This document shows positions 4,738 to 57,824 of a DNA stretch of 64,000 nt, piece after piece; positions within the stretch are counted from its first letter, which is position 1, and the number at the start of each line of letters is the position of its first letter. The stretch spans positions 129,845 through 193,844 of IMG/VR virus record IMGVR_UViG_3300028666_000023, one strand, 5' to 3'. The translations under genes were made by a program, and so were the position numbers. The notes under the pieces were generated by a model that searched no databases, was not told where the DNA came from, and saw only the letters and a list, made by a program, of their open reading frames with translations. The DNA comes from a virus.

Positions 4738-5684
4738 GTCAGGTCTTGCGGCGCGCGCCCACCGATGCTGCCCTTGAACGCACCGGCGATGCCCGAGCCG
4801 AAGTGCGGGCCCTTGGGCTTCGCAATCTGCGCGATCGACGGCCCCGGTCCAGAGAGCTTCGGTGCACCGACAGACTTCGCTGCCGAGGGTGCACCGCCGA
4901 GCGTCGGGCTCACGCCCATGATGCCGCCCGCGGCGCCCATCTTCTCACGCAGCGTCGCGACGAACTTCGCCATCTCCTCGACGGGCATCGAGTACTTCGA
5001 CTTCTTGAAGTCGCTCTGGTTGTACGTGACGTAGTCCGGCAGCATGTCGCCGTCCTTCTCCTTGGACTTCTTCGCCACGGGCGCAGGGTCGAACGCGAGA
5101 TCGAGGTCGCTGCGCTTCTGGATGGGGCTCTGTAGGTCCGGAGCTGCGAACGAGGGGATGTCGCTCGCCATCATGAAGTTCCCGCGCGTGGGCGCGCCGG
5201 CCGCTTGCTTGCGCTTCTGCACCACCGACTGGAGGTTCGGCGCAAGGAACCCGGGCGCGGAGCTCGCCTGCGAAGGGATGCTCGGGTTGAGGGGGTAGGA
5301 GTACTGGCTCGTCGTGAACGCGTGCTTCGCGATCGGCGCGACCTTGTCGATGAGCTTCTCGAGCCCGCGCTTGCCCGCGAGGTACGCCGGCGTGAGACCG
5401 GGAATCGGCACCCCCTGCATCGGGATGATCTCCGGGTTCTTGATGCCCACGGAGGCCACGCTCTTCAGCGCACCGGCGATGCGCGGCGTGAACGTCTTGT
5501 CGGCCGCGCGATCGACCGCCGCCTGCGCGGGGCCCTGCAGCTTGCCGAACGCGTTCTCGACTCCGTGCTGAAGACCCGCGAGCTCGTCGGGCGAACGCTT
5601 GCGCATCAGCAGCCGCGGCGTGTTGGGCACGTCAGTGGCGCCGAGGCGCACGAGCCGTTCGATGAGCGCGTCCTTCTCCATCAC
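4734..5684 (-). CDS. Putative virion-associated protein
   Basis: The 316 aa product starts MMEKDALIERLVRLGATD and has a short basic N-terminal block (PRLLMRKRSPDELAGLQ), then proline/alanine/serine-rich low-complexity sequence with glycine-rich C-terminus. Composition and neighbours (a run of similar proteins up to 8.7 kb after the baseplate genes) suggest a virion or injected protein. No domain is recognised. Confidence 0.6.
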   Translation of the reverse strand: MMEKDALIERLVRLGATDVPNTPRLLMRKRSPDELAGLQHGVENAFGKLQGPAQAAVDRAADKTFTPRIAGALKSVASVGIKNPEIIPMQGVPIPGLTPAYLAGKRGLEKLIDKVAPIAKHAFTTSQYSYPLNPSIPSQASSAPGFLAPNLQSVVQKRKQAAGAPTRGNFMMASDIPSFAAPDLQSPIQKRSDLDLAFDPAPVAKKSKEKDGDMLPDYVTYNQSDFKKSKYSMPVEEMAKFVATLREKMGAAGGIMGVSPTLGGAPSAAKSVGAPKLSGPGPSIAQIAKPKGPHFGSGIAGAFKGSIGGRAPQDLT

Positions 5685-6313
5685 TTCTTCTTTTTCATGG
5701 CGGCGTCATGCTCGCCCTCGCGCTTGCCCACGTGATAGAGCGCCGCGCCGGAGGCGATGCCGCCCACGCCGCGCGCGATCTCGCGCGTGTCTCCATGCGC
5801 GACGCCCGACCCTGCCTCAATCGCCGGGCCGATGCGGTGCTTCAGAAAACCGTGCACGCCCTGAAGGCCATGCTCGAGTGCGCTCCGCGCCACATCTTTC
5901 GCATCCGCGCCCTTGCTCAAACCGGAGGACATCGGGGAGTCGGTCATGGCGCCGGGGGACGGGGCGTACTCGCCGACGTGCTCCTGGTTCATGAACTTCT
6001 TGAGCTTGCCATACTCGGCCTTGCGATCGAGCTGCCGCGCGACGAGCGGGATGGCACCCATTCCGATAGCGCCGCCGACCGCCCCCGCGAGCGCGCCGCG
6101 CCGCGTGGGGAGTGCGCCATGCTCGAGGGCGTTGCCGAGGAGCCTGGTCCCAGCGCCCGCGGCAGCACCGAGCGCGCCGTAGCGACCGACCTGCCCGAGC
6201 GTCGGCTTGCTCTGGTCGATCGCATCGAGCTTCTCGAGGGAGCGGTGGGCCTCCTCAGCGCTGACCGCGCCAAGCTTCTCGAGCTCGTCGAAGAACGCGT
6301 CGATCGGCAGCAT
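5681..6313 (-). CDS. Putative virion protein with N-terminal DEL-x-KL tag and glycine zippers
   Basis: The 210 aa product begins MLPIDAFFDELEKLG, one of four neighbouring proteins with this N-terminal signature. Residues 40-90 are glycine/alanine rich (GALGAAAGAGTRLLG, GALAGAVGGAIGMGAIP), a glycine-zipper pattern typical of proteins that insert into or cross membranes. Ends in a lysine run. The ATG shares base 6313 with the previous stop region. An injected or tail-tip role is an inference. Confidence 0.6.
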   Translation of the reverse strand: MLPIDAFFDELEKLGAVSAEEAHRSLEKLDAIDQSKPTLGQVGRYGALGAAAGAGTRLLGNALEHGALPTRRGALAGAVGGAIGMGAIPLVARQLDRKAEYGKLKKFMNQEHVGEYAPSPGAMTDSPMSSGLSKGADAKDVARSALEHGLQGVHGFLKHRIGPAIEAGSGVAHGDTREIARGVGGIASGAALYHVGKREGEHDAAMKKKK

Positions 6314-6883: not shown

Positions 6884-8122
6884 TCACCTGAAGAACTTGC
6901 CGACACGTGCGAGCATACCAGGAGCCTTGGCCGCGACCGAGTGTTCTGCGGATTGCAGTGCTCCGCCGACGGCGCCGCCGAGTGAGGGGGCCTTCTTCAT
7001 CAAGTTGAAAGGCGCCGCGGTCCCCATGGACTGAACGGTGTGCGCGGTAGTTCCAGACGCCGCGAGCGCAGGTCGAGCAGCGGGCAGCGCTGCACGTTGG
7101 GGGACAGCCGTTCGAACGTCGTCTACGCCACCCCCGCCGAGATGTTGTGCCGGTGGTGCCGTGGTCGGCGCGGCCTTCTGGATGTTCATCTGCGGGTTGA
7201 ACACCTCCTTGCGGAGAGCTCCGACGTTCGCGTTCTGGCCGGGGTCGGCGCCGAACCGGCTGTCGCCCTTCGGTGCGTACGTGTGCAGCGAATCCAGCGC
7301 GTGGTTCGCCTGCCCTTCCGTGTGCGGCAAGAAGTCGAGCACCTTCGGACCTTGGGGGGAGTTCACGACGTTCCCCCAGTTGGTGCCGAGACTCCCTGAG
7401 GAGTTTCGGATCTTGGTGGTGTCCATCATGTGGTGGCCCTGCGCCTCCATCGGATTGACCACCGTCTCGTTGACCTTGTTGACCGCGCCCATGTACTGGT
7501 CGCGAGGGTTGCTGTAGACCGCGCGCCCGTTGGCCTCGGCCTTCTGGCCGCGCAGGTCGGAGATGCCGGGCACGTACTCGTGGAAGGACGTCGAGCGTTG
7601 TAGTCCCCCTGCACCATGTGTCTCGTGACCGTACATCGCAGGCACCATGCTCTTCGCCTCGGGCGAGAGAGAGCGCGCTTGGTCGGTCATCTGCTGTTTG
7701 TGCTCGAGGAGCTTCGGCGTGAACTCCCCCTGAGACACGGGGCTGTCGGGTTTGTACAACTTGCGCGCGACGTAGCCACTCTGGTTCACCTCACCCGTCG
7801 AGGGCACTGCCTTGCGTCCCATCATCAGGTCGACGCCGGCTTCCGCTCCACCAGGAGAGATGTCCTTCAGCTGACGCGGCTTGAGTCCGAGGTCGCCGTA
7901 GCCCTTGGCGATCTGGTCGGCTCCTGCTTGGTTGCCCGCTGCATTCGCCGCCTGCCACTCCTTCACCGCGCGCGTCGCTGCGATCTTCGACCCAGGCGCC
8001 ATCTTGATGGTCGCCATGCGCGGCGCGAGCGTCGTCAGCGCGTTGTTCGGACGGAGCTCCCCGGGTGTGGCGATCTTCGCGAGCTCGCTCTCGAAGGCGC
8101 TCTTGATGCTGTCGAGGTTCAT
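6884..8122 (-). CDS. Putative virion protein with ESELAKIA tag
   Basis: The 412 aa product begins MNLDSIKSAFESELAKIATP. The middle (residues 100-260) holds a region around SPEAKSMVPAMYGHETHG, HEYVPGISDLRGQKAEANG and HHMMDTTKIRNSSGS that looks like a folded domain; the order of conserved H, D and N residues recalls a kinase-like or toxin-like fold (GNVVNSPQGPKVLDFLPH), but I cannot name the family. The C-terminus is alanine/proline rich. It may be an injected effector. Confidence 0.6.
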   Translation of the reverse strand: MNLDSIKSAFESELAKIATPGELRPNNALTTLAPRMATIKMAPGSKIAATRAVKEWQAANAAGNQAGADQIAKGYGDLGLKPRQLKDISPGGAEAGVDLMMGRKAVPSTGEVNQSGYVARKLYKPDSPVSQGEFTPKLLEHKQQMTDQARSLSPEAKSMVPAMYGHETHGAGGLQRSTSFHEYVPGISDLRGQKAEANGRAVYSNPRDQYMGAVNKVNETVVNPMEAQGHHMMDTTKIRNSSGSLGTNWGNVVNSPQGPKVLDFLPHTEGQANHALDSLHTYAPKGDSRFGADPGQNANVGALRKEVFNPQMNIQKAAPTTAPPAQHLGGGGVDDVRTAVPQRAALPAARPALAASGTTAHTVQSMGTAAPFNLMKKAPSLGGAVGGALQSAEHSVAAKAPGMLARVGKFFR

Positions 8123-8634
8123 GCGTGCCCGCTCGGGTGGTTCATGGCACCGATGTCGCTCGAGTGTTGCCCGAGACCGGTGACCGTCGTTGCGTTCTCT
8201 CGCTGGTCGTATCGATCGACGGTGTTCACGTCGTCCAGGCTCGGGACGTCACCCTTCTTGCGTGGCTTTTTTGCTTCCGCAAACCCAGGTGTCTCACCGC
8301 CAGGGATGGGCCCGGGTCCCTCCGCGTAGACGCTGCCCTGCAGGGAACCATACTTCTGCTCGAGGGGAATCATCTCCCCCCGCGTGGGCCCGTCCCCCGA
8401 ATGCTTCTTCGCTTTGGCGGCGCCGGGGTCGTCCACGCTGCCCGCCGCGGTGTCCTGGGGGTTTCCCTGAGAATCCGCCCCCTTGTAGAGCTCGCCGCGC
8501 TTGTCCTTGTCCAACAGCTTGTCCACTGAAATGGGACGGCGCCCCTCCCGCGACTTCGTAATATCCATGTGGCTCTCCGCGAAGGCGATCTTCGAAAGCT
8601 CGTCGTAGAACGCGGAGAGAACTTTGCCGTCCAC
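8119..8634 (-). CDS. Putative virion protein with YDELSKIA tag
   Basis: From a GTG at 8634 the 171 aa product begins (M)DGKVLSAFYDELSKIAF, which puts the shared tag at the same distance from the N-terminus as in the three following genes. The ATG at 8685, with AGGAG 7 nt upstream, is an alternative and would overlap the divergent 8678 start. The rest is polar and proline/glycine rich (LLDKDKRGELYKGADSQGN). Function unknown. Confidence 0.55.
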   Translation of the reverse strand: MDGKVLSAFYDELSKIAFAESHMDITKSREGRRPISVDKLLDKDKRGELYKGADSQGNPQDTAAGSVDDPGAAKAKKHSGDGPTRGEMIPLEQKYGSLQGSVYAEGPGPIPGGETPGFAEAKKPRKKGDVPSLDDVNTVDRYDQRENATTVTGLGQHSSDIGAMNHPSGHA

Positions 8635-17581: not shown

Positions 17582-17621
17582 GGCAAATTTAGGGCCCTTG
17601 GAGGGATAAGGATCTTGGAGG
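17582..17621 (+). promoter_or_regulatory. Bipartite promoter-like motif, copy 1
   Basis: GGCAAATTT (17582-17590), 12 nt, GGGATAAGGA (17603-17612), then CTTGGAGG (17614-17621), 7 nt before the ATG at 17629. Six copies with the same arrangement precede the plus-strand genes of this region. I read it as -35/-10 elements fused to the ribosome binding site, giving a very short leader. Confidence 0.65.
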
Positions 17622-17628
17622 CATTACA

Positions 17629-17961: not shown

Positions 17962-18001
17962 GGCAACTTTCCCATCCCAGTAGGGATAAGACCTTTGGAG
18001 G
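17962..18001 (+). promoter_or_regulatory. Bipartite promoter-like motif, copy 2
   Basis: GGCAACTTT (17962-17970), 12 nt, GGGATAAGA (17983-17991), CTTTGGAGG (17993-18001), then 8 nt to the ATG at 18010. Confidence 0.65.
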
Positions 18002-18009
18002 CAACCAAC

Positions 18010-18576
18010 ATGAACTTCAAATCAACAGCACTTGTACTCTTCGGCATTCTCATCGCCTGCGGAAGCAGCGCCGTCGGGGGTACCGACGACGCCAAAGCAG
18101 ACAACCAGTGCACCTGCACCGGCGAAAAGGGAGCTCAAGGAGCGCCTGGTCTCGACGGCGCACAAGGCCCGGCGGGTGCGCCCGGCGCGGCAGGACCCGA
18201 GGGACCCCAAGGTCCGCAGGGACTTCAAGGAGCCGAGGGCCCGCAAGGGGTTCAAGGACCCCAAGGCGCGCAGGGTGCGGCCGGGAAGGACGGCACCATC
18301 ACTTCGAAGACCGCGCTCTACGCCGTGCAGAGCAGCGTGACCGTCCCCGCCAACAGCGGTGCGACGGTGAAGGCTGCGTGCAGCGACGCCAACGACATCC
18401 TTCTCAGCGGCAGCTGCTGGGGAGGTGGTTCGCTGGGGCAGAACCCGGTGGCCCAGAGCTACCCGGAGAACGTCGCGACGACGTCGCTCACGGCCGACTG
18501 GTACTGCGACGGCGTCAACGCGAGCTCGTCGAGCTTCCAGCTCACCGCCACGGCTGTCTGCGTGTCGGTCCCCTGA
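18010..18576 (+). CDS. Collagen-like lipoprotein
   Basis: The 188 aa product starts with a lipoprotein signal (basic/polar MNFKST, hydrophobic [11 protein letters not shown], lipobox L-I-A-C at residues 14-17). After a short linker, about 19 Gly-X-Y triplets follow ([19 protein letters not shown] and on, roughly residues 40-97), forming a predicted collagen triple helix. A C-terminal 85-residue domain has three Cys and beta character ([20 protein letters not shown]). It should be anchored in the host membrane or outer membrane, not in the virion. It has its own promoter motif and terminator, as expected for an accessory gene acting on the host surface, for example in exclusion of other phages; that role is inference. 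The ATG at 17995 is out of register with the GGAGG and was not used. Confidence 0.85.
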
Positions 18577-18619: not shown

Positions 18620-18660
18620 AGCAAATTCGCCTGTGTCTCCAGGGATAAGAGCTTTGGAGG
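18620..18660 (+). promoter_or_regulatory. Bipartite promoter-like motif, copy 3
   Basis: AGCAAATTC (18620-18628), 13 nt, GGGATAAGA (18642-18650), CTTTGGAGG (18652-18660), 7 nt to the ATG at 18668. Confidence 0.65.
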
Positions 18661-18667
18661 CTTCAAC

Positions 18668-37289: not shown

Positions 37290-37316
37290 CCTAAGGAGTT
37301 GAGGCCGGGATACAAT
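37290..37316 (+). promoter_or_regulatory. Promoter candidate for lipoprotein-protease cassette
   Basis: TTGGCC, 17-18 nt, GATACAAT, 10 nt before the ATG at 37324. GGGATACAAT resembles the GGGATAAGA cassettes but lacks the GCAA box, so it may be a host sigma-70 type promoter with a very short leader. Confidence 0.45.
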
Positions 37317-37323
37317 TGCCCGC

Positions 37324-37647
37324 ATGCACAAGTACATCCTGCTCGTTCCACTTCTTCTCGGCTGCCCTCCGCAGCCGACGCCCCCCACCCCCGATGCAGA
37401 CGCGATGACCGCGCCTGACGCTGCTTCCGAAGCTGCGCCCGCTCCGGCGGATGCTTGCGGCCGCGCGGAGCAGAACCTCCTCAAGCTCCAGTGCAAGGAC
37501 CAGCGCGGCATCGTCATCGGTGCGCCGAACCTCCACGGAGTTCCGTGGGCTCAGATCTGCCGAGACAACAAGGCGAACGGCGTCGACATGAAGCCGGAGT
37601 GCCTCGTGACCAAAACCAACTGCGGAGGAGTCGAACAATGTCGCTGA
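37324..37647 (+). CDS. Cys-rich lipoprotein
   Basis: The 107 aa product has a lipoprotein signal (MHKYILLVPLLLGC, lipobox L-L-G-C, Cys14), a proline/alanine-rich linker (residues 15-43) and a small domain with six Cys (DACGRAEQNLLKLQCKDQRG ... CRDNKANGVDMKPEC ... NCGGVEQC). It should be exported and anchored in the envelope. Its 3' end overlaps the protease gene by 10 nt, so the two are probably made together. Confidence 0.8.
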   Translation: MHKYILLVPLLLGCPPQPTPPTPDADAMTAPDAASEAAPAPADACGRAEQNLLKLQCKDQRGIVIGAPNLHGVPWAQICRDNKANGVDMKPECLVTKTNCGGVEQCR

Positions 37648-38480
37648 GCGAACCGGTCAAGGTCCTTCGGGGTTACCTCCCCGGCAAAACGATGACGCCG
37701 GAGATCCGCGCAGCCGTTGGGCCCGCGCGTCTCTTCGCTGACGTCCACACGAAGTTCGTCGCCAAAGCTGCGCCCCTCGCGCAGGACGGCGTCGACTACG
37801 ACATTCCGTTCGAGCCGCCGGCGTACGACCAGGGCGACATCGGCAGCTGCGTGCTCAACGCGACGTGCGGCGCCTACAACATGGTGCTCGGCGTCGAGCG
37901 CTCGGCGCAGGTCATGCTCTCGCGCCTCTTCTTGTACTGGTTGTGCCGCGAGCAGATGGGCACGCTGGACTCGGACAGCGGCACGTACACGCACCTCGCC
38001 GTCGATCGCGTCGGCAAGATCGGCGTCTGCCAAGAGGCCATGTGGTACTACGACGACTCGATGCTGTACGTGGTCCCGTCGCCGGACTGCTACCCGGCGG
38101 CGAGCGACAACAAGGCGACCGCGTGGTTCCAGATCGTGGACCCGACGGGCGCGGGCCAACCGACGCGTCTCGACCAGCTCGAGGCGGCAGTTCGCTCGAA
38201 CCACCCGGGCATCTTCGGCACGCCGTGCTCGCAGGCCATCATGCAGTACCAAGCGGGCCAGGTGCTGGGGATCCCGGACGCGTCGGGAATCATCGGCGGC
38301 CACTCCATGGTGGTCACCGGCGTCCACTACATCAACGGCAAGCGCGTCTGGCGCATCCGCAACTCGTGGAGCCCGTCGTACGGCGACAACGGCCACCTCC
38401 TCATCGACGACGACTGGATGGGATGGCCGGAGCTCGACGACATCTGGGTGCTGTCGCGCGCCGACGCGCTCATGTTCTAG
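37638..38480 (+). CDS. Papain-fold (C1-like) cysteine protease
   Basis: The 280 aa product has the papain catalytic order: oxyanion Gln65 in YDQGDIGSCVLNATCGAY with nucleophile Cys71, His222 in GGHSMVVTGVH, and Asn242 in RNSWSPSYGDNGHLLI. It lacks a signal peptide and a pro-domain of normal size (only about 60 residues precede the active site). It cleaves peptides; substrate unknown. Host-targeted or envelope function together with the co-encoded lipoprotein is inference. Papain-type enzymes are unusual among phage products. A terminator follows. Confidence 0.88.
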   Translation: MSLSEPVKVLRGYLPGKTMTPEIRAAVGPARLFADVHTKFVAKAAPLAQDGVDYDIPFEPPAYDQGDIGSCVLNATCGAYNMVLGVERSAQVMLSRLFLYWLCREQMGTLDSDSGTYTHLAVDRVGKIGVCQEAMWYYDDSMLYVVPSPDCYPAASDNKATAWFQIVDPTGAGQPTRLDQLEAAVRSNHPGIFGTPCSQAIMQYQAGQVLGIPDASGIIGGHSMVVTGVHYINGKRVWRIRNSWSPSYGDNGHLLIDDDWMGWPELDDIWVLSRADALMF

Positions 38481-38501: not shown

Positions 38502-38540
38502 AGGGCCATTCCTATTCAAGTGGGGATGGCCCTTTTCTTT
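38502..38540 (+). terminator. Intrinsic terminator
   Basis: GGGCCAT / ATGGCCC with a 16 nt loop, followed by CCTTTTCTTTTCT. It ends the protease gene. Confidence 0.8.
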
Positions 38541-38557
38541 TCTGCTACAACGACTGC

Positions 38558-38998
38558 ATGGCTGGCAAAGTGAGCCGGTTCACGCGCCGTTTCTTCATGA
38601 CGCTCGAGGGAGATGAAGCGTTCCTCCTCGACGTGCTCGTGGGGATGATGAAGCGCGAGCTCAAGAAGAAGCGTGGTGGACTTTCGCAGCCCGAAGTCTT
38701 CGCCGCCGTCCTCAAGGCGTACTGCATGGAACACGCGAACGACATCGCGGAGGAGCTCGTCGATGCATCACAACGGGAGCAGTTCTGGAAAGCCGTTCAA
38801 TCCGGACGAGTCGTATCCAAACTTCCGCGCGCCCATCGCGCCGGAAGTAGTGGCCAAGCCCGACTTCCAGAGATTCCCGACGGTCGAGGAGCTCCTCGAC
38901 ATGAAGAACCCACACCCATTCCTGCGCCTCGCGGAGCCACCTCCCCCGCGTCCGGCATCGTTCGGGCTCCTTCAGGAACTCCTGGGCGGGCGGCTTGA
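38558..38998 (+). CDS. Unknown protein; second half overlaps the next gene
   Basis: The first 70 residues look like a real helical protein (FMTLEGDEAFLLDVLVGMMK; LSQPEVFAAVLKAYCMEHAN). The last 78 residues overlap the 38763-39299 gene in another frame and have shadow-like Arg/Pro/Ala composition, so either a long true overlap or a lost earlier stop is possible. TACAAC before the ATG may be a -10. Confidence 0.5.
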   Translation: MAGKVSRFTRRFFMTLEGDEAFLLDVLVGMMKRELKKKRGGLSQPEVFAAVLKAYCMEHANDIAEELVDASQREQFWKAVQSGRVVSKLPRAHRAGSSGQARLPEIPDGRGAPRHEEPTPIPAPRGATSPASGIVRAPSGTPGRAA

Positions 38999-39299
38999 TG
39001 TTCTCGTGACCGATGCGGCGCTTCATCCCGAGCGCTACGACGCGGACACGAAGGAGCTCCTGGAGGAACTCGGCGACGACATGACGAAGGTGCAGAAGCT
39101 GGACATCACCCAGCAGCACATCTTGAACCGCGCGGTCATCGACTACGCGGCGTGCAAGCCGAAGGGCACGCCCGCCTCTCCGAAGAAGCCGGTGCCGAAG
39201 AAGCCGACGCAGACTGTGCTCGAGAAGATGGAGCACGGCGACGAGGAAGACCCGGGGAAAGAACCCGGCGGCGTGATGTCCAGCTACTGGTGGCTCTAA
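38763..39299 (+). CDS. Unknown 178 aa protein
   Basis: GGAGGAG lies 7 nt before the ATG at 38763. The product has a proline-rich N-terminus and a helical middle (ASFGLLQELLGGRLDVLVTD; TKVQKLDITQQHILNRAVID), then a basic proline-lysine segment (PASPKKPVPKKPTQTVLEKM). No family is recognised. Confidence 0.7.
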   Translation: MHHNGSSSGKPFNPDESYPNFRAPIAPEVVAKPDFQRFPTVEELLDMKNPHPFLRLAEPPPPRPASFGLLQELLGGRLDVLVTDAALHPERYDADTKELLEELGDDMTKVQKLDITQQHILNRAVIDYAACKPKGTPASPKKPVPKKPTQTVLEKMEHGDEEDPGKEPGGVMSSYWWL

Positions 39300-40781: not shown

Positions 40782-41023
40782 TCAGGCTTCGGAGGAGAAG
40801 TACTGTTGCGCCTCGATAGTAACTCACAAACGTCCGAAACCCTAACAACCGTGTTCTTCTGAACGCGCTTGAGGGAGTCGATCGCCGCGGCGACTTTCGG
40901 GTCAACGCCAGGACTCGTGTGTTCTTCTTCCCCGTCGTAGTCGAGGCCTTCGAGCTCGTCGGCCTTCAGGATTGCTTCAGCATCCCCTCGAGCCTTCCGA
41001 GGTGCCTGTTCATTTCCCGCCAT
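40778..41023 (-). CDS. Unknown 81 aa protein
   Basis: Polar, acidic product (AILKADELEGLDYDGEEEHT) with a C-terminal helix. It overlaps the upstream gene by 58 nt and the next start by 4 nt. Function unknown. Confidence 0.55.
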   Translation of the reverse strand: MAGNEQAPRKARGDAEAILKADELEGLDYDGEEEHTSPGVDPKVAAAIDSLKRVQKNTVVRVSDVCELLSRRNSTSPPKPE

Positions 41024-41493
41024 TGTTCCTCCTGACCCTTTACGAATTCTGCGAAGGCTTCGTTCTTGGTGTAGCGCGCACCCTTCTCCCGCAAGCGCTC
41101 GAGGTTCTTTCGGATCTCTGAGAGCTCGCGCCGAAGATCTTCGAGCGGATCAGGGCGACTGCCTCGTTCTGCTGTGATGGCCGCGCGGATGGCTTTGTCT
41201 TCTTCGAGCTCGTTCTTGATGGTGTTGAGCTCGAGGAGCCAACCTGCGTTGTTCGCCTTGTACTGGTCGATGTGCTCCTGCAGCGCAGTGAGATGCGATT
41301 GGTGTGCCTCTTCGAGGGTCTCGAGACGCTCGAGGAGCTCTACACTTTCGCGAGCGTCCTTCTTCGCAGCCAGCAACTGTTTTGCGTCAACGAGTTGCTT
41401 CGCGCGGCGGTACTTCAGCCACGAGCCGAGGAAGCCAGCTCCGCCGCTGCCAAGGACCGTCAGGCCGTGTTCGATGAGGACTCCAACGTCCAA
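40966..41493 (-). CDS. Coiled-coil protein with N-terminal membrane-like segment
   Basis: The 175 aa product has a short hydrophobic N-terminus (VGVLIEHGLTVLGSGGAGFL) and then an almost continuous charged helix to the end (ESVELLERLETLEEAHQSHL; RRELSEIRKNLERLREKGAR). The layout would fit an i-spanin or a structural fibre; neither is proven. Confidence 0.6.
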   Translation of the reverse strand: MDVGVLIEHGLTVLGSGGAGFLGSWLKYRRAKQLVDAKQLLAAKKDARESVELLERLETLEEAHQSHLTALQEHIDQYKANNAGWLLELNTIKNELEEDKAIRAAITAERGSRPDPLEDLRRELSEIRKNLERLREKGARYTKNEAFAEFVKGQEEQWREMNRHLGRLEGMLKQS

Positions 41494-41935: not shown

Positions 41936-42694
41936 TCAGGAGCCGGGGATGCCGGGGAACGTCGCGTTCGCGCCGCCTGCGTTGCCCGACGTCGTGTTGG
42001 AGATGAGGGTGAGGGCTGCGACCGCGACGGGGACCGCGCGCTCGAACTGAACCGCCACCGACTCCTGGATGAGAACGCCCTGCGCGTCGGTCGCCCACGA
42101 GTGGTTCGGCAGGTAGCAGGCCTCGAAGTACACCGCAGCCAGGGTGTCCTGGTTGATGTCGCGGATGTACATCAGCATGCCGATCGGCTGCGCGAACAAG
42201 TCCGAGGCGAGGTTGACGTAGATGTTCTCGTAGCCCGGCGGGATGATGACGTCGTGGGGGTTCGACATCGCCTGCGCGCCCGCGTTCGGGAACATCGCCG
42301 GCACCACCGTCGGCGGGATGAGGTCCTGGTAGTACGCGTACAGAATCCGGAGCAGCGACGCACCGTGGTAGTAGATGCGGCCCAGCCCGAGCTGGCCCAC
42401 CGTACGACCGGCGATGAAGTAGCTGCGCTCCGACCCGATCTCGAAGATGCGGGAGAACTGACGCGTGTGGGAGAGGTTGAAGTTCTGGACGATGCCGACG
42501 GGGAACACGATCTGGTTCGCCGCCTGTCCGTTGCCCGCAACCGCACCAGCCACCGCGGCCGCGCCGCCGATGTTGGCCAGACGAGGCGGCCCCGCCGCGA
42601 GCATCGTGAAGCCCGCGTTCGCGTAACGCCCGTCTACGAGACCAGCCTGGACGTACGAAGTGTACGGGGACCAGTCGCTGAAGTTGCCTGCCAT
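41936..42694 (-). CDS. Tail tube-like protein
   Basis: The 252 aa product lies just downstream of the sheath gene, where tail tube genes lie. FNLSHTRQFSRIFEIGSERS, then YFIAGRTVGQLGLGRIYYHG and LLRILYAYYQDLIPP follow a pattern recurrent in tube-type proteins of large myoviruses. A glycine/alanine-rich insertion is near residues 42-60. Identification by sequence pattern and gene order. Confidence 0.65.
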   Translation of the reverse strand: MAGNFSDWSPYTSYVQAGLVDGRYANAGFTMLAAGPPRLANIGGAAAVAGAVAGNGQAANQIVFPVGIVQNFNLSHTRQFSRIFEIGSERSYFIAGRTVGQLGLGRIYYHGASLLRILYAYYQDLIPPTVVPAMFPNAGAQAMSNPHDVIIPPGYENIYVNLASDLFAQPIGMLMYIRDINQDTLAAVYFEACYLPNHSWATDAQGVLIQESVAVQFERAVPVAVAALTLISNTTSGNAGGANATFPGIPGS

Positions 42695-42698
42695 CGTC

Positions 42699-42926
42699 TC
42701 ACTCCTTCACGGGGGCAGTGTAGCTGCCACCCAGGCTCTCGTACATTCTCACAACGTCGTTTGGGCTGATGCTCTCGGCAATCTTGAGCAGCTCGAGATC
42801 TGCACCCGCCAGCTTGTGCAGCGCGATCGCATCGACGCCCGAAAGCTGCGCCAGTCCACCGGAGCGCTCCTGCAGTGAGGAGCGACCGATGGCGTCGGCG
42901 GCGAGCTTGCGGAGATCGATGTCCAT
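42699..42926 (-). CDS. Unknown 75 aa protein between sheath and tube
   Basis: The product is helical (MDIDLRKLAADAIGRSSLQE; AIALHKLAGADLELLKIAES). Its ATG shares a base with the sheath stop (TAATG), so it is coupled to the sheath gene. Its IALHKLAG and ELLKIAES echo the L-x-K-I/L-A pattern seen in other virion proteins here. Confidence 0.65.
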   Translation of the reverse strand: MDIDLRKLAADAIGRSSLQERSGGLAQLSGVDAIALHKLAGADLELLKIAESISPNDVVRMYESLGGSYTAPVKE

Positions 42927-56432: not shown

Positions 56433-57824
56433 TCAGGCGCGCGCGCCCGACTCCTTGTTCTTGTCCGCGTCGATCGACGCAGCGAGCTTGGAGAGCAGCG
56501 CGCTCGCGGCCGCCGTCTTCACCGACTCCCCCGCGGGCGGAGGTTGCTGGTCGACGCCCTCTGCCGAGGCGATCTTCGGCCCAGCTTGAGGAGTGTGGGA
56601 GAAGGCGACCTGGAGCGTCTTGTCGTGCTCCGCGCTCATGGCGGGCTCGGCGAAGTACTTCTTGAGGTCCTCTTTGCGGTTGGCGTACGCCTCGCCGCGC
56701 TTCAAGTCGATGGCGCCCTTGTTGGACATCACGTGTCCCGTCGGGCCCTGCGGCGCGCCGCCTGCCGGCTGCTGCGGGATGCGCTCGCCGCTCTCGACCG
56801 CTGCCGGAGGAACGGCCTTGCCGGCGGAGATCTGAGCCGGGTTGATCGCGTCCTCGGCCGCCTTCACACGACCCGCCATGTAGTCGGCGAGCGACGCTTC
56901 CTTGTTCTCCGGCTCGGACTTGTGCGCCTTCTCGGCCTCCTCGAGGCCTTTCTTCGCGGCGTCGAGACCCTCGGTCTCTTTCTTCTCGTGCTCGTCGGAC
57001 GCGAGCTTCGCGCGAACGAGGCCGACCACGCCAGCCGTCTTGCCGCCGTAGTTCTTCTCGATCTGCTTCTGGTGCTCGGCCGGAGCGTGATTGAGGTTCG
57101 TCTCGTTCTTCGTCGTGCCGTGCTCCGCGGGCAGGCCCTTCTCGGAGCCCGTGTGCATCGGGACGACGTGCACGCCCTGACCCTTGTGGTCGGGGAGCGT
57201 TCCGCTCGCGGTCGCCTGGCTCACGCCGGGCGGCGACGTCACGAGGTGCTCGCTGAGGTGGTACGGGCCGTGAAGGTCCGCGCCTTCCTTGATCTTGTCC
57301 GCCAAGAAATCGAGAGCGCTCGCGAGCTTCTCGACGTCCTGGTCCGACGCCTTCTTCTCCGACTTGTGCTTGTGTTCGCACTCGCTCATCGGACAGTCGT
57401 GCTCGGAGCACTTCTCGCCAGCGACCTTCGCCGTTTGGAGAGCGGCCTCGTGCGCGACGTTCACGTTCGCGCGGCGCGCGGACTCCGCCATCGCGGTCTT
57501 CACGAGGTCTTGCATCATCGGGCGGGCAATCGTCTTGGACATGATGGAGTGTTCTCCGGCAGAAGCTTTCTTGGGCAGCATCTCAGCACCGCGAGGGGGG
57601 AGCGACTTCTGTGCTGAAGCGCCCGCATCCGCGACTGGCGGAGTTCCTGTGTTGACTCGGGTGTAGTTCGTTCGCGGTGACAGACCTGCCGGCCCCTGCT
57701 TTCCGGGTGCCGGCGTTGGATCGATGGAGGGAGTGGGGAGCGGGGAGGCTGCGGACGCTCCGGTAGAAGATGGAGCTTCGGCGGGTGCCGCGCCCTTCTT
57801 CTGTAGAAATCCGGATTGCATCAC
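56433..57824 (-). CDS. Prohead core/scaffold-like protein with KTA motifs
   Basis: The 463 aa product is polar, rich in K, E, A and P, with little hydrophobic core. Several K-T-A or K-x-A sites occur: LVKTAMAESARR, LQTAKVAG, YGGKTAGVVG, GESVKTAAASALLSKLAASI. A Cys/His cluster (CSEHDCPMSECEHKH) is near residue 140. Composition and place between the protease and the capsid gene suggest a prohead core protein cut during head maturation. Confidence 0.6.
   Translation of the reverse strand: MMQSGFLQKKGAAPAEAPSSTGASAASPLPTPSIDPTPAPGKQGPAGLSPRTNYTRVNTGTPPVADAGASAQKSLPPRGAEMLPKKASAGEHSIMSKTIARPMMQDLVKTAMAESARRANVNVAHEAALQTAKVAGEKCSEHDCPMSECEHKHKSEKKASDQDVEKLASALDFLADKIKEGADLHGPYHLSEHLVTSPPGVSQATASGTLPDHKGQGVHVVPMHTGSEKGLPAEHGTTKNETNLNHAPAEHQKQIEKNYGGKTAGVVGLVRAKLASDEHEKKETEGLDAAKKGLEEAEKAHKSEPENKEASLADYMAGRVKAAEDAINPAQISAGKAVPPAAVESGERIPQQPAGGAPQGPTGHVMSNKGAIDLKRGEAYANRKEDLKKYFAEPAMSAEHDKTLQVAFSHTPQAGPKIASAEGVDQQPPPAGESVKTAAASALLSKLAASIDADKNKESGARA

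Follow-up and report, generated by a model that had tools for sequence, protein, structure and literature searches.

A clade of phage papain-like proteases inherited together with a six-cysteine lipoprotein

Several papain-fold proteases of bacteria, including SpeB (with Spi), the staphopains and the B. fragilis enzymes, are encoded adjacent to their inhibitors, some of which are predicted outer-membrane lipoproteins (PMC2873492). In B. fragilis, the predicted outer-membrane lipoproteins Bfi1B and Bfi4 lie beside C10 proteases, and the C10 protease gene bfp3 is carried on a prophage-like element (PMC2873492). A separate group of short C1A peptidases, exemplified by xylellain (PDB 3ois), occurs in bacteria and some Caudoviricetes, and acquisition of xylellain-type peptidases by Caudoviricetes has been published (PMC10380794).

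The locus described here lies in a 64,000-nucleotide stretch of DNA (the window), taken from the very end of a virus record of 193.8 kb, and encodes a small lipoprotein overlapping a papain-like protease. It resembles the Bfp/Bfi, SpeB–Spi and staphopain–staphostatin systems in combining a papain-fold protease with a small, co-transcribed adjacent protein. Those enzymes, however, belong to families C10 or C47 rather than C1A, and in B. fragilis the proteases, too, are predicted to be lipoproteins. The Bfi and staphostatin inhibitors are staphostatin-like, whereas the partner here is a predicted helical six-Cys domain whose model lacks the lipocalin-like β-fold. The protease matches xylellain in fold, catalytic Gln/Cys/His/Asn and size, but falls in a separate phage clade accompanied by a Cys-rich lipoprotein, which was found beside the protease at 0 of 80 loci of bacterial relatives. 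Llp of phage T5 and Rtp45 are likewise small phage lipoproteins with a disulfide and a periplasmic face (PMC9586334, PMC12685063); unlike the window lipoprotein, they are shorter, have one disulfide and are not described with a protease. No match between Llp, Cor or Rtp45 and the window lipoprotein was found in PDB sequences or folds, these families being too short and divergent for such searches to exclude a relationship. Phage lysis cassettes (holin, endolysin and spanins) are similar in that some of the pairs lie directly beside endolysin and TM/lipoprotein genes (L250, G062 and G064), but the pair adds a protease, and no endolysin was found near it in the window's phage. The lipoprotein family and its constant pairing look undescribed in the literature searched, whereas the protease type is already known.

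The overlapping gene pair and its products

The pair is flanked in the window by virion genes on one side and nucleotide-metabolism genes on the other. Its features are:

37311–37316, + strand: possible −10 element TACAAT, read from the sequence, 7 nt 5′ of the lipoprotein ATG; weak
37324–37647, + strand: lipoprotein ORF, 107 aa, with lipobox LLGC14, a Pro/Ala-rich linker (residues ~15–42) and a six-Cys domain modelled as helical (43–107)
37624–37628, + strand: GGAGG, a Shine–Dalgarno-like site for the protease, read directly, within the lipoprotein gene and 9 nt 5′ of the protease ATG
37638–37647, + strand: 10-nt overlap of the lipoprotein and protease frames; junctions compared with relatives
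37638–38480, + strand: xylellain-type papain-like cysteine protease, 280 aa, with Gln65, Cys71, His222 and Asn242, assigned by PF00112, a 3ois match and a structure model
38502–38540, + strand: terminator hairpin with a T-run, starting 22 nt past the stop codon of the protease; −26.3 kcal/mol, z −5.2

The coordinates of the 10-nt overlap between a six-Cys lipoprotein and the protease, as given in an earlier note on this DNA, proved exact. An ATG yielding the identical overlap is present in L002, L006, L007 and L008, and the overlap is 4 nt in L003. Transcription start signals are faint: a sigma-70 scan returned no full promoter for the pair, and if TACAAT is the −10 element of the lipoprotein gene, a near-leaderless transcript would result. 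TACAAT occupies the same upstream place in L006, as does TATCAT in L002 and L003. At the 3′ end, none of 200 shuffles folded as well as the hairpin at 38502–38540. Hairpins of other sequence lie directly 3′ of the protease in L006 (z −5.2), L007 (z −2.4) and L008 (z −1.9), while L002 and L003 have no hairpin there and carry an extra gene instead. A terminator pattern scan taken alone gave no excess over shuffles. Because the hairpin directly follows the protease, the lipoprotein and protease likely form a two-gene transcription unit that it closes. Both genes are under purifying selection (dN/dS of 0.15 and 0.13 in the L002–L003 comparison) and are therefore not a chance pair of ORFs. Downstream of the unit, two + strand ORFs (38558–38998 and 38763–39299) overlap by >230 nt in different frames, and both have counterparts in relatives.

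Two further sequence patterns were observed in the window. The repeat AGGGATAAG..CTTTGGAGGC occurs at 17602–17622, 17982–18002 and 18641–18661, just 5′ of three consecutive + strand genes; zero copies are expected in shuffles, and it is probably a shared promoter or ribosome-site element. An FxxELxKIA-like N-terminal motif is shared by several virion-region proteins (5681–6313, 6884–8122, 8119–8634, 56433–57542, 42699–42926 (− strand)). At residues 60–105 the motif was present in 0 of 66 genes, and it is possibly a capsid-targeting or processing signal.

The protease scored 42.6 bits (9.3e-11) against Pfam PF00112, above the curated cut-off of 20.7, and its best solved relative was xylellain, 3ois (1.9e-18; 27% identity). 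A structure model built from an alignment of 43 sequences (pLDDT 90.5, pTM 0.89) superposed on 3ois with a Z of 28.3 and an rmsd of 2.4 over 236 aligned residues, the next entry scoring a Z of 25.5. Gln65, Cys71, His222 and Asn242 are in register with 3ois, in agreement with the intact papain site claimed earlier, and are placed together in this confident papain-fold model. Among the 43 aligned proteases, Gln, Cys and His are invariant and Asn is conserved in ≥90%; the tetrad is intact in 14 of 15 proteases paired with a lipoprotein, the exception being L010, which lacks Asn. By inspection, the N-terminus has no hydrophobic segment and hence no visible signal peptide, as the earlier note had also read it. 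On alignment and modelling, the protein is a xylellain-type C1A peptidase, a known kind, with predicted proteolytic activity. Contrary to the earlier note, papain-type enzymes proved not to be rare in phages: at least 134 environmental viral contigs encode such proteases (one pattern set), and they have been reported in Caudoviricetes (PMC10380794). Isolated phages gave only distant proteases (FLC9 and LR756511, plus THSA-485A for a different query), and the lipoprotein was not found in them.

The type-II lipobox LLGC14 of the lipoprotein was identified by pattern, and lipobox-like sequences are present in the homologues too. Six further Cys follow (45, 57, 79, 93, 100 and 106), and all seven, lipobox and domain together, are invariant across 12 aligned upstream-type lipoproteins. 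Domain 43–107 was modelled as four short helices with pLDDT mostly over 90. Asp at position +2, after the lipidated Cys, is present in 0 of 15 homologous or analogous lipoproteins, which, judged solely by the E. coli rule, suggests a predicted outer-membrane location; the envelope-located partner that had been postulated agrees with both the lipobox and the +2 residues. The pair defines a lipoprotein family that has no entry in Pfam, PHROGs or NCBIfam: searches matched no Pfam or NCBIfam family and nothing convincing in PHROGs. No solved structure was matched in fold searches or PDB sequences, and no anti-phage defence model was hit. A pattern search of bacterial genomes, which cannot exclude presence, did not find the lipoprotein. 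Its only structural neighbours were two uncultured-phage proteins in BFVD (unnamed or 'Lipoprotein'), of which A0A6J5RT22, 'Lipoprotein' of an uncultured Caudovirales phage, shares its predicted fold (Foldseek E 0.014, prob 1.00). Across the six closest phages, identity to the window copy was 40–52% for the lipoprotein compared to 58–64% for the protease. The window encodes another predicted lipoprotein at 18010–18576 (+), with a collagen-like repeat (PF01391, 3.3e-10).

Co-inheritance of protease and lipoprotein

Sixteen distinct phage contigs have a Cys-rich lipoprotein beside their protease, with its homology unproven in one (L010). It lies upstream in 12 and downstream in four (L223, L241, L250 and L010), and protease identity among paired contigs falls to ~25%. 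The overlapping pair is kept in all of the closest relatives (L002, L003, L006, L007 and L008), and a search with the lipoprotein returned just the five contigs having close proteases. A final protease scan added L238, L241 and L250; in L196 and L238, one gene intervenes between protease and lipoprotein. Profiles of the upstream and downstream lipoproteins match each other (hhalign probability 97.1, E 5.9e-11), and domain-only scores surpassed every one of 500 shuffles in L223 and in L250, and 499 of them in L241. The downstream Cys-lipoprotein of L010 has no sequence support for homology (0.2 bits); its protease belongs to the paired clade.

The wider phage group was assembled as 44 contigs sharing the conserved virion protein encoded at window 41936–42694, termed the tube protein from its position adjoining a sheath-like gene. 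Twelve of these contigs encode the protease, and the lipoprotein search was positive in 11 of the 12; in the twelfth, G053, a lipoprotein homologue follows the protease on its downstream side at a distance of 8 nt. Together with the window's record, 13 contigs have both genes, 32 have neither and 0 have only one, a count in which many contigs are incomplete and which, given shared ancestry, does not amount to 45 independent trials. In G053 and G073 the pair is located elsewhere in the genome.

In a tree of 64 sequences, comprising 15 proteases with a Cys-rich lipoprotein neighbour and 49 viral or bacterial proteases without one, all 15 paired proteases form a single clade (SH-like 0.999; 57/60 bootstraps). 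An antisense control for Cys-rich lipoprotein neighbours gave one match in 96 viral loci. Functional coupling of protease and lipoprotein, which the earlier note had proposed with linkage in relatives as its test, is strongly supported: relatives keep both genes, a subset of them in the opposite order.

Lipoproteins of any kind made up 9 of 199 same-strand neighbours within two genes of xylellain-like phage proteases, compared to 3 of 341 in the background. A lipoprotein link general to all such phage proteases was nevertheless rejected, the six-Cys type being restricted to one clade. Beside another phage C1 protease, L009 encodes a predicted lipoprotein (L009:6681-7313, +) whose HCxxGxxR motif resembles that of tyrosine phosphatases; two more lipoproteins lie directly upstream of that protease.

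Lysis-gene context and candidate roles of the pair

Some of the pairs lie among lysis genes. An M15_4 endolysin was found in only 3 of 36 contigs of the phage group: G062 and G064, where the pair is less than 1 kb away, and G065, where the endolysin occupies the syntenic position with no pair there. The gene order in L250 is Amidase_2 endolysin, TM protein, helical lipoprotein, protease and Cys-lipoprotein. A small TM gene followed by a second helical lipoprotein of no assigned family is found near the protease in L010, L241, L250, L223 and L224, lying just upstream of it in L010, L241, L223 and L224; the two are possibly a spanin-like pair. Holin similarity of the TM genes was weak in L241 and L223 (E ~0.02). 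In the window's phage, the sole Amidase_2 is ~96 kb from the pair, and searches for GH24, GH19, GH25 and M15_4 found none; GH25 genes in the phages of L006 and L007 are also distant from the pair. A TM/coiled-coil gene with weak holin similarity (0.036) lies 2.5 kb away in the window (40966–41493). An o-spanin is paired, in a lysis cassette, with an inner-membrane coiled-coil spanin; the direct partner of the window lipoprotein is a protease. The suggestion of a lysis aid draws positional support from relatives with an M15 endolysin (G062, G064) or an Amidase_2 (L250) beside the pair, but none from the gene order of the window's own phage. A lysis-cassette location as a general trait of xylellain-like proteases was not retained, as an endolysin lay within ~3 kb in only a few other contigs, which is suggestive only.

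Our best explanation, put forward tentatively, is a lysis-stage envelope protease acting with a lipid-anchored six-Cys partner. The bicistronic, translationally coupled unit would give rise to a cytoplasmic protease and a periplasm-facing, lipid-anchored partner. Because it is made without a signal peptide, the protease would stay in the cytoplasm until holin-type permeabilisation and would then reach the envelope alongside the endolysin. There it could cut envelope proteins, for example tethers between outer membrane and peptidoglycan, surface proteins or receptors on debris, and the disulfide-stabilised lipoprotein, on its flexible Pro-rich linker, would bind it at the membrane. The both-or-neither pairing, the two gene orders, the single clade, the operon and the lysis-locus position in several relatives count in favour; the distant Amidase_2 of the window's phage and the separation of partner and unexported protease before permeabilisation count against. 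As for the partner, positioning or docking of the protease is a reasonable if tentative assignment, restraint (as inhibitor or immunity protein) a possible one, and an independent envelope task is somewhat unlikely. We lean slightly to docking because an unexported protease would meet a periplasmic inhibitor only after permeabilisation. More speculatively, the pair may represent a previously unrecognised proteolytic step in lysis or release, in which a clade-specific protease would work only with an outer-membrane-anchored lipoprotein that docks or restrains it at the host envelope; in function this would be comparable to spanins or a protease/immunity pair. To our knowledge, phage proteases acting on the host envelope have scarcely been described, and the pair offers a concrete, testable candidate for protein cleavage that serves lysis, the clearance of debris or lysate immunity.

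Other readings were weighed against this one. A protease–inhibitor (immunity) pair, in which the membrane-held lipoprotein keeps the protease from harming the infected cell or neighbouring cells, would follow the rule for several bacterial papain-fold proteases with adjacent, co-transcribed small inhibitors (Spi, staphostatins and Bfi) and is compatible with both-or-neither inheritance. It appears unlikely, as the predicted fold is helical rather than lipocalin-like as in staphostatins, and as the protease has no export signal, so that an inhibitor in the periplasm would leave the cytoplasm unprotected. A lipoprotein serving in superinfection exclusion or receptor blocking (Llp/Cor/Rtp45-like), beside a protease that separately strips receptors or surface proteins without contact between the two, has precedent in the small disulfide-containing exclusion lipoproteins T5 Llp and Rtp45 (PMC9586334, PMC12685063), which are not tied to proteases there. 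The faster divergence of the lipoprotein than of the protease would fit, but tight joint inheritance with one protease clade despite changed gene order suggests a direct partner, and we regard this reading as unlikely.

Action of the protease in the cytoplasm, on virion protein maturation or host takeover, with a lipoprotein adjoining only through shared transcription, would agree with the missing signal peptide and with the position between virion and nucleotide-metabolism genes. The protease is absent from 32 of the 45 contigs of the group (some incomplete) and is therefore not an essential virion maturase; such a role would also leave the constant lipoprotein unexplained, making it improbable. 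Passive synteny, with the two genes neighbours by descent and functionally unlinked, draws on a general gene order around the pair that is common to the six closest phages. The opposite gene orders, the other genomic sites in G053 and G073, the joint absence and the restriction to one clade make it very improbable.

In L179, L180 and L182, the site of the pair is occupied by a different 331-aa protein overlapping an 82-aa lipoprotein (L180:15426-16663, −). The larger protein had no Pfam match and contains, by eye, the papain-like motifs NDSVGDCV and NGHC. Judged from these motifs, the two proteins are possibly an analogous, non-homologous protease–lipoprotein pair.
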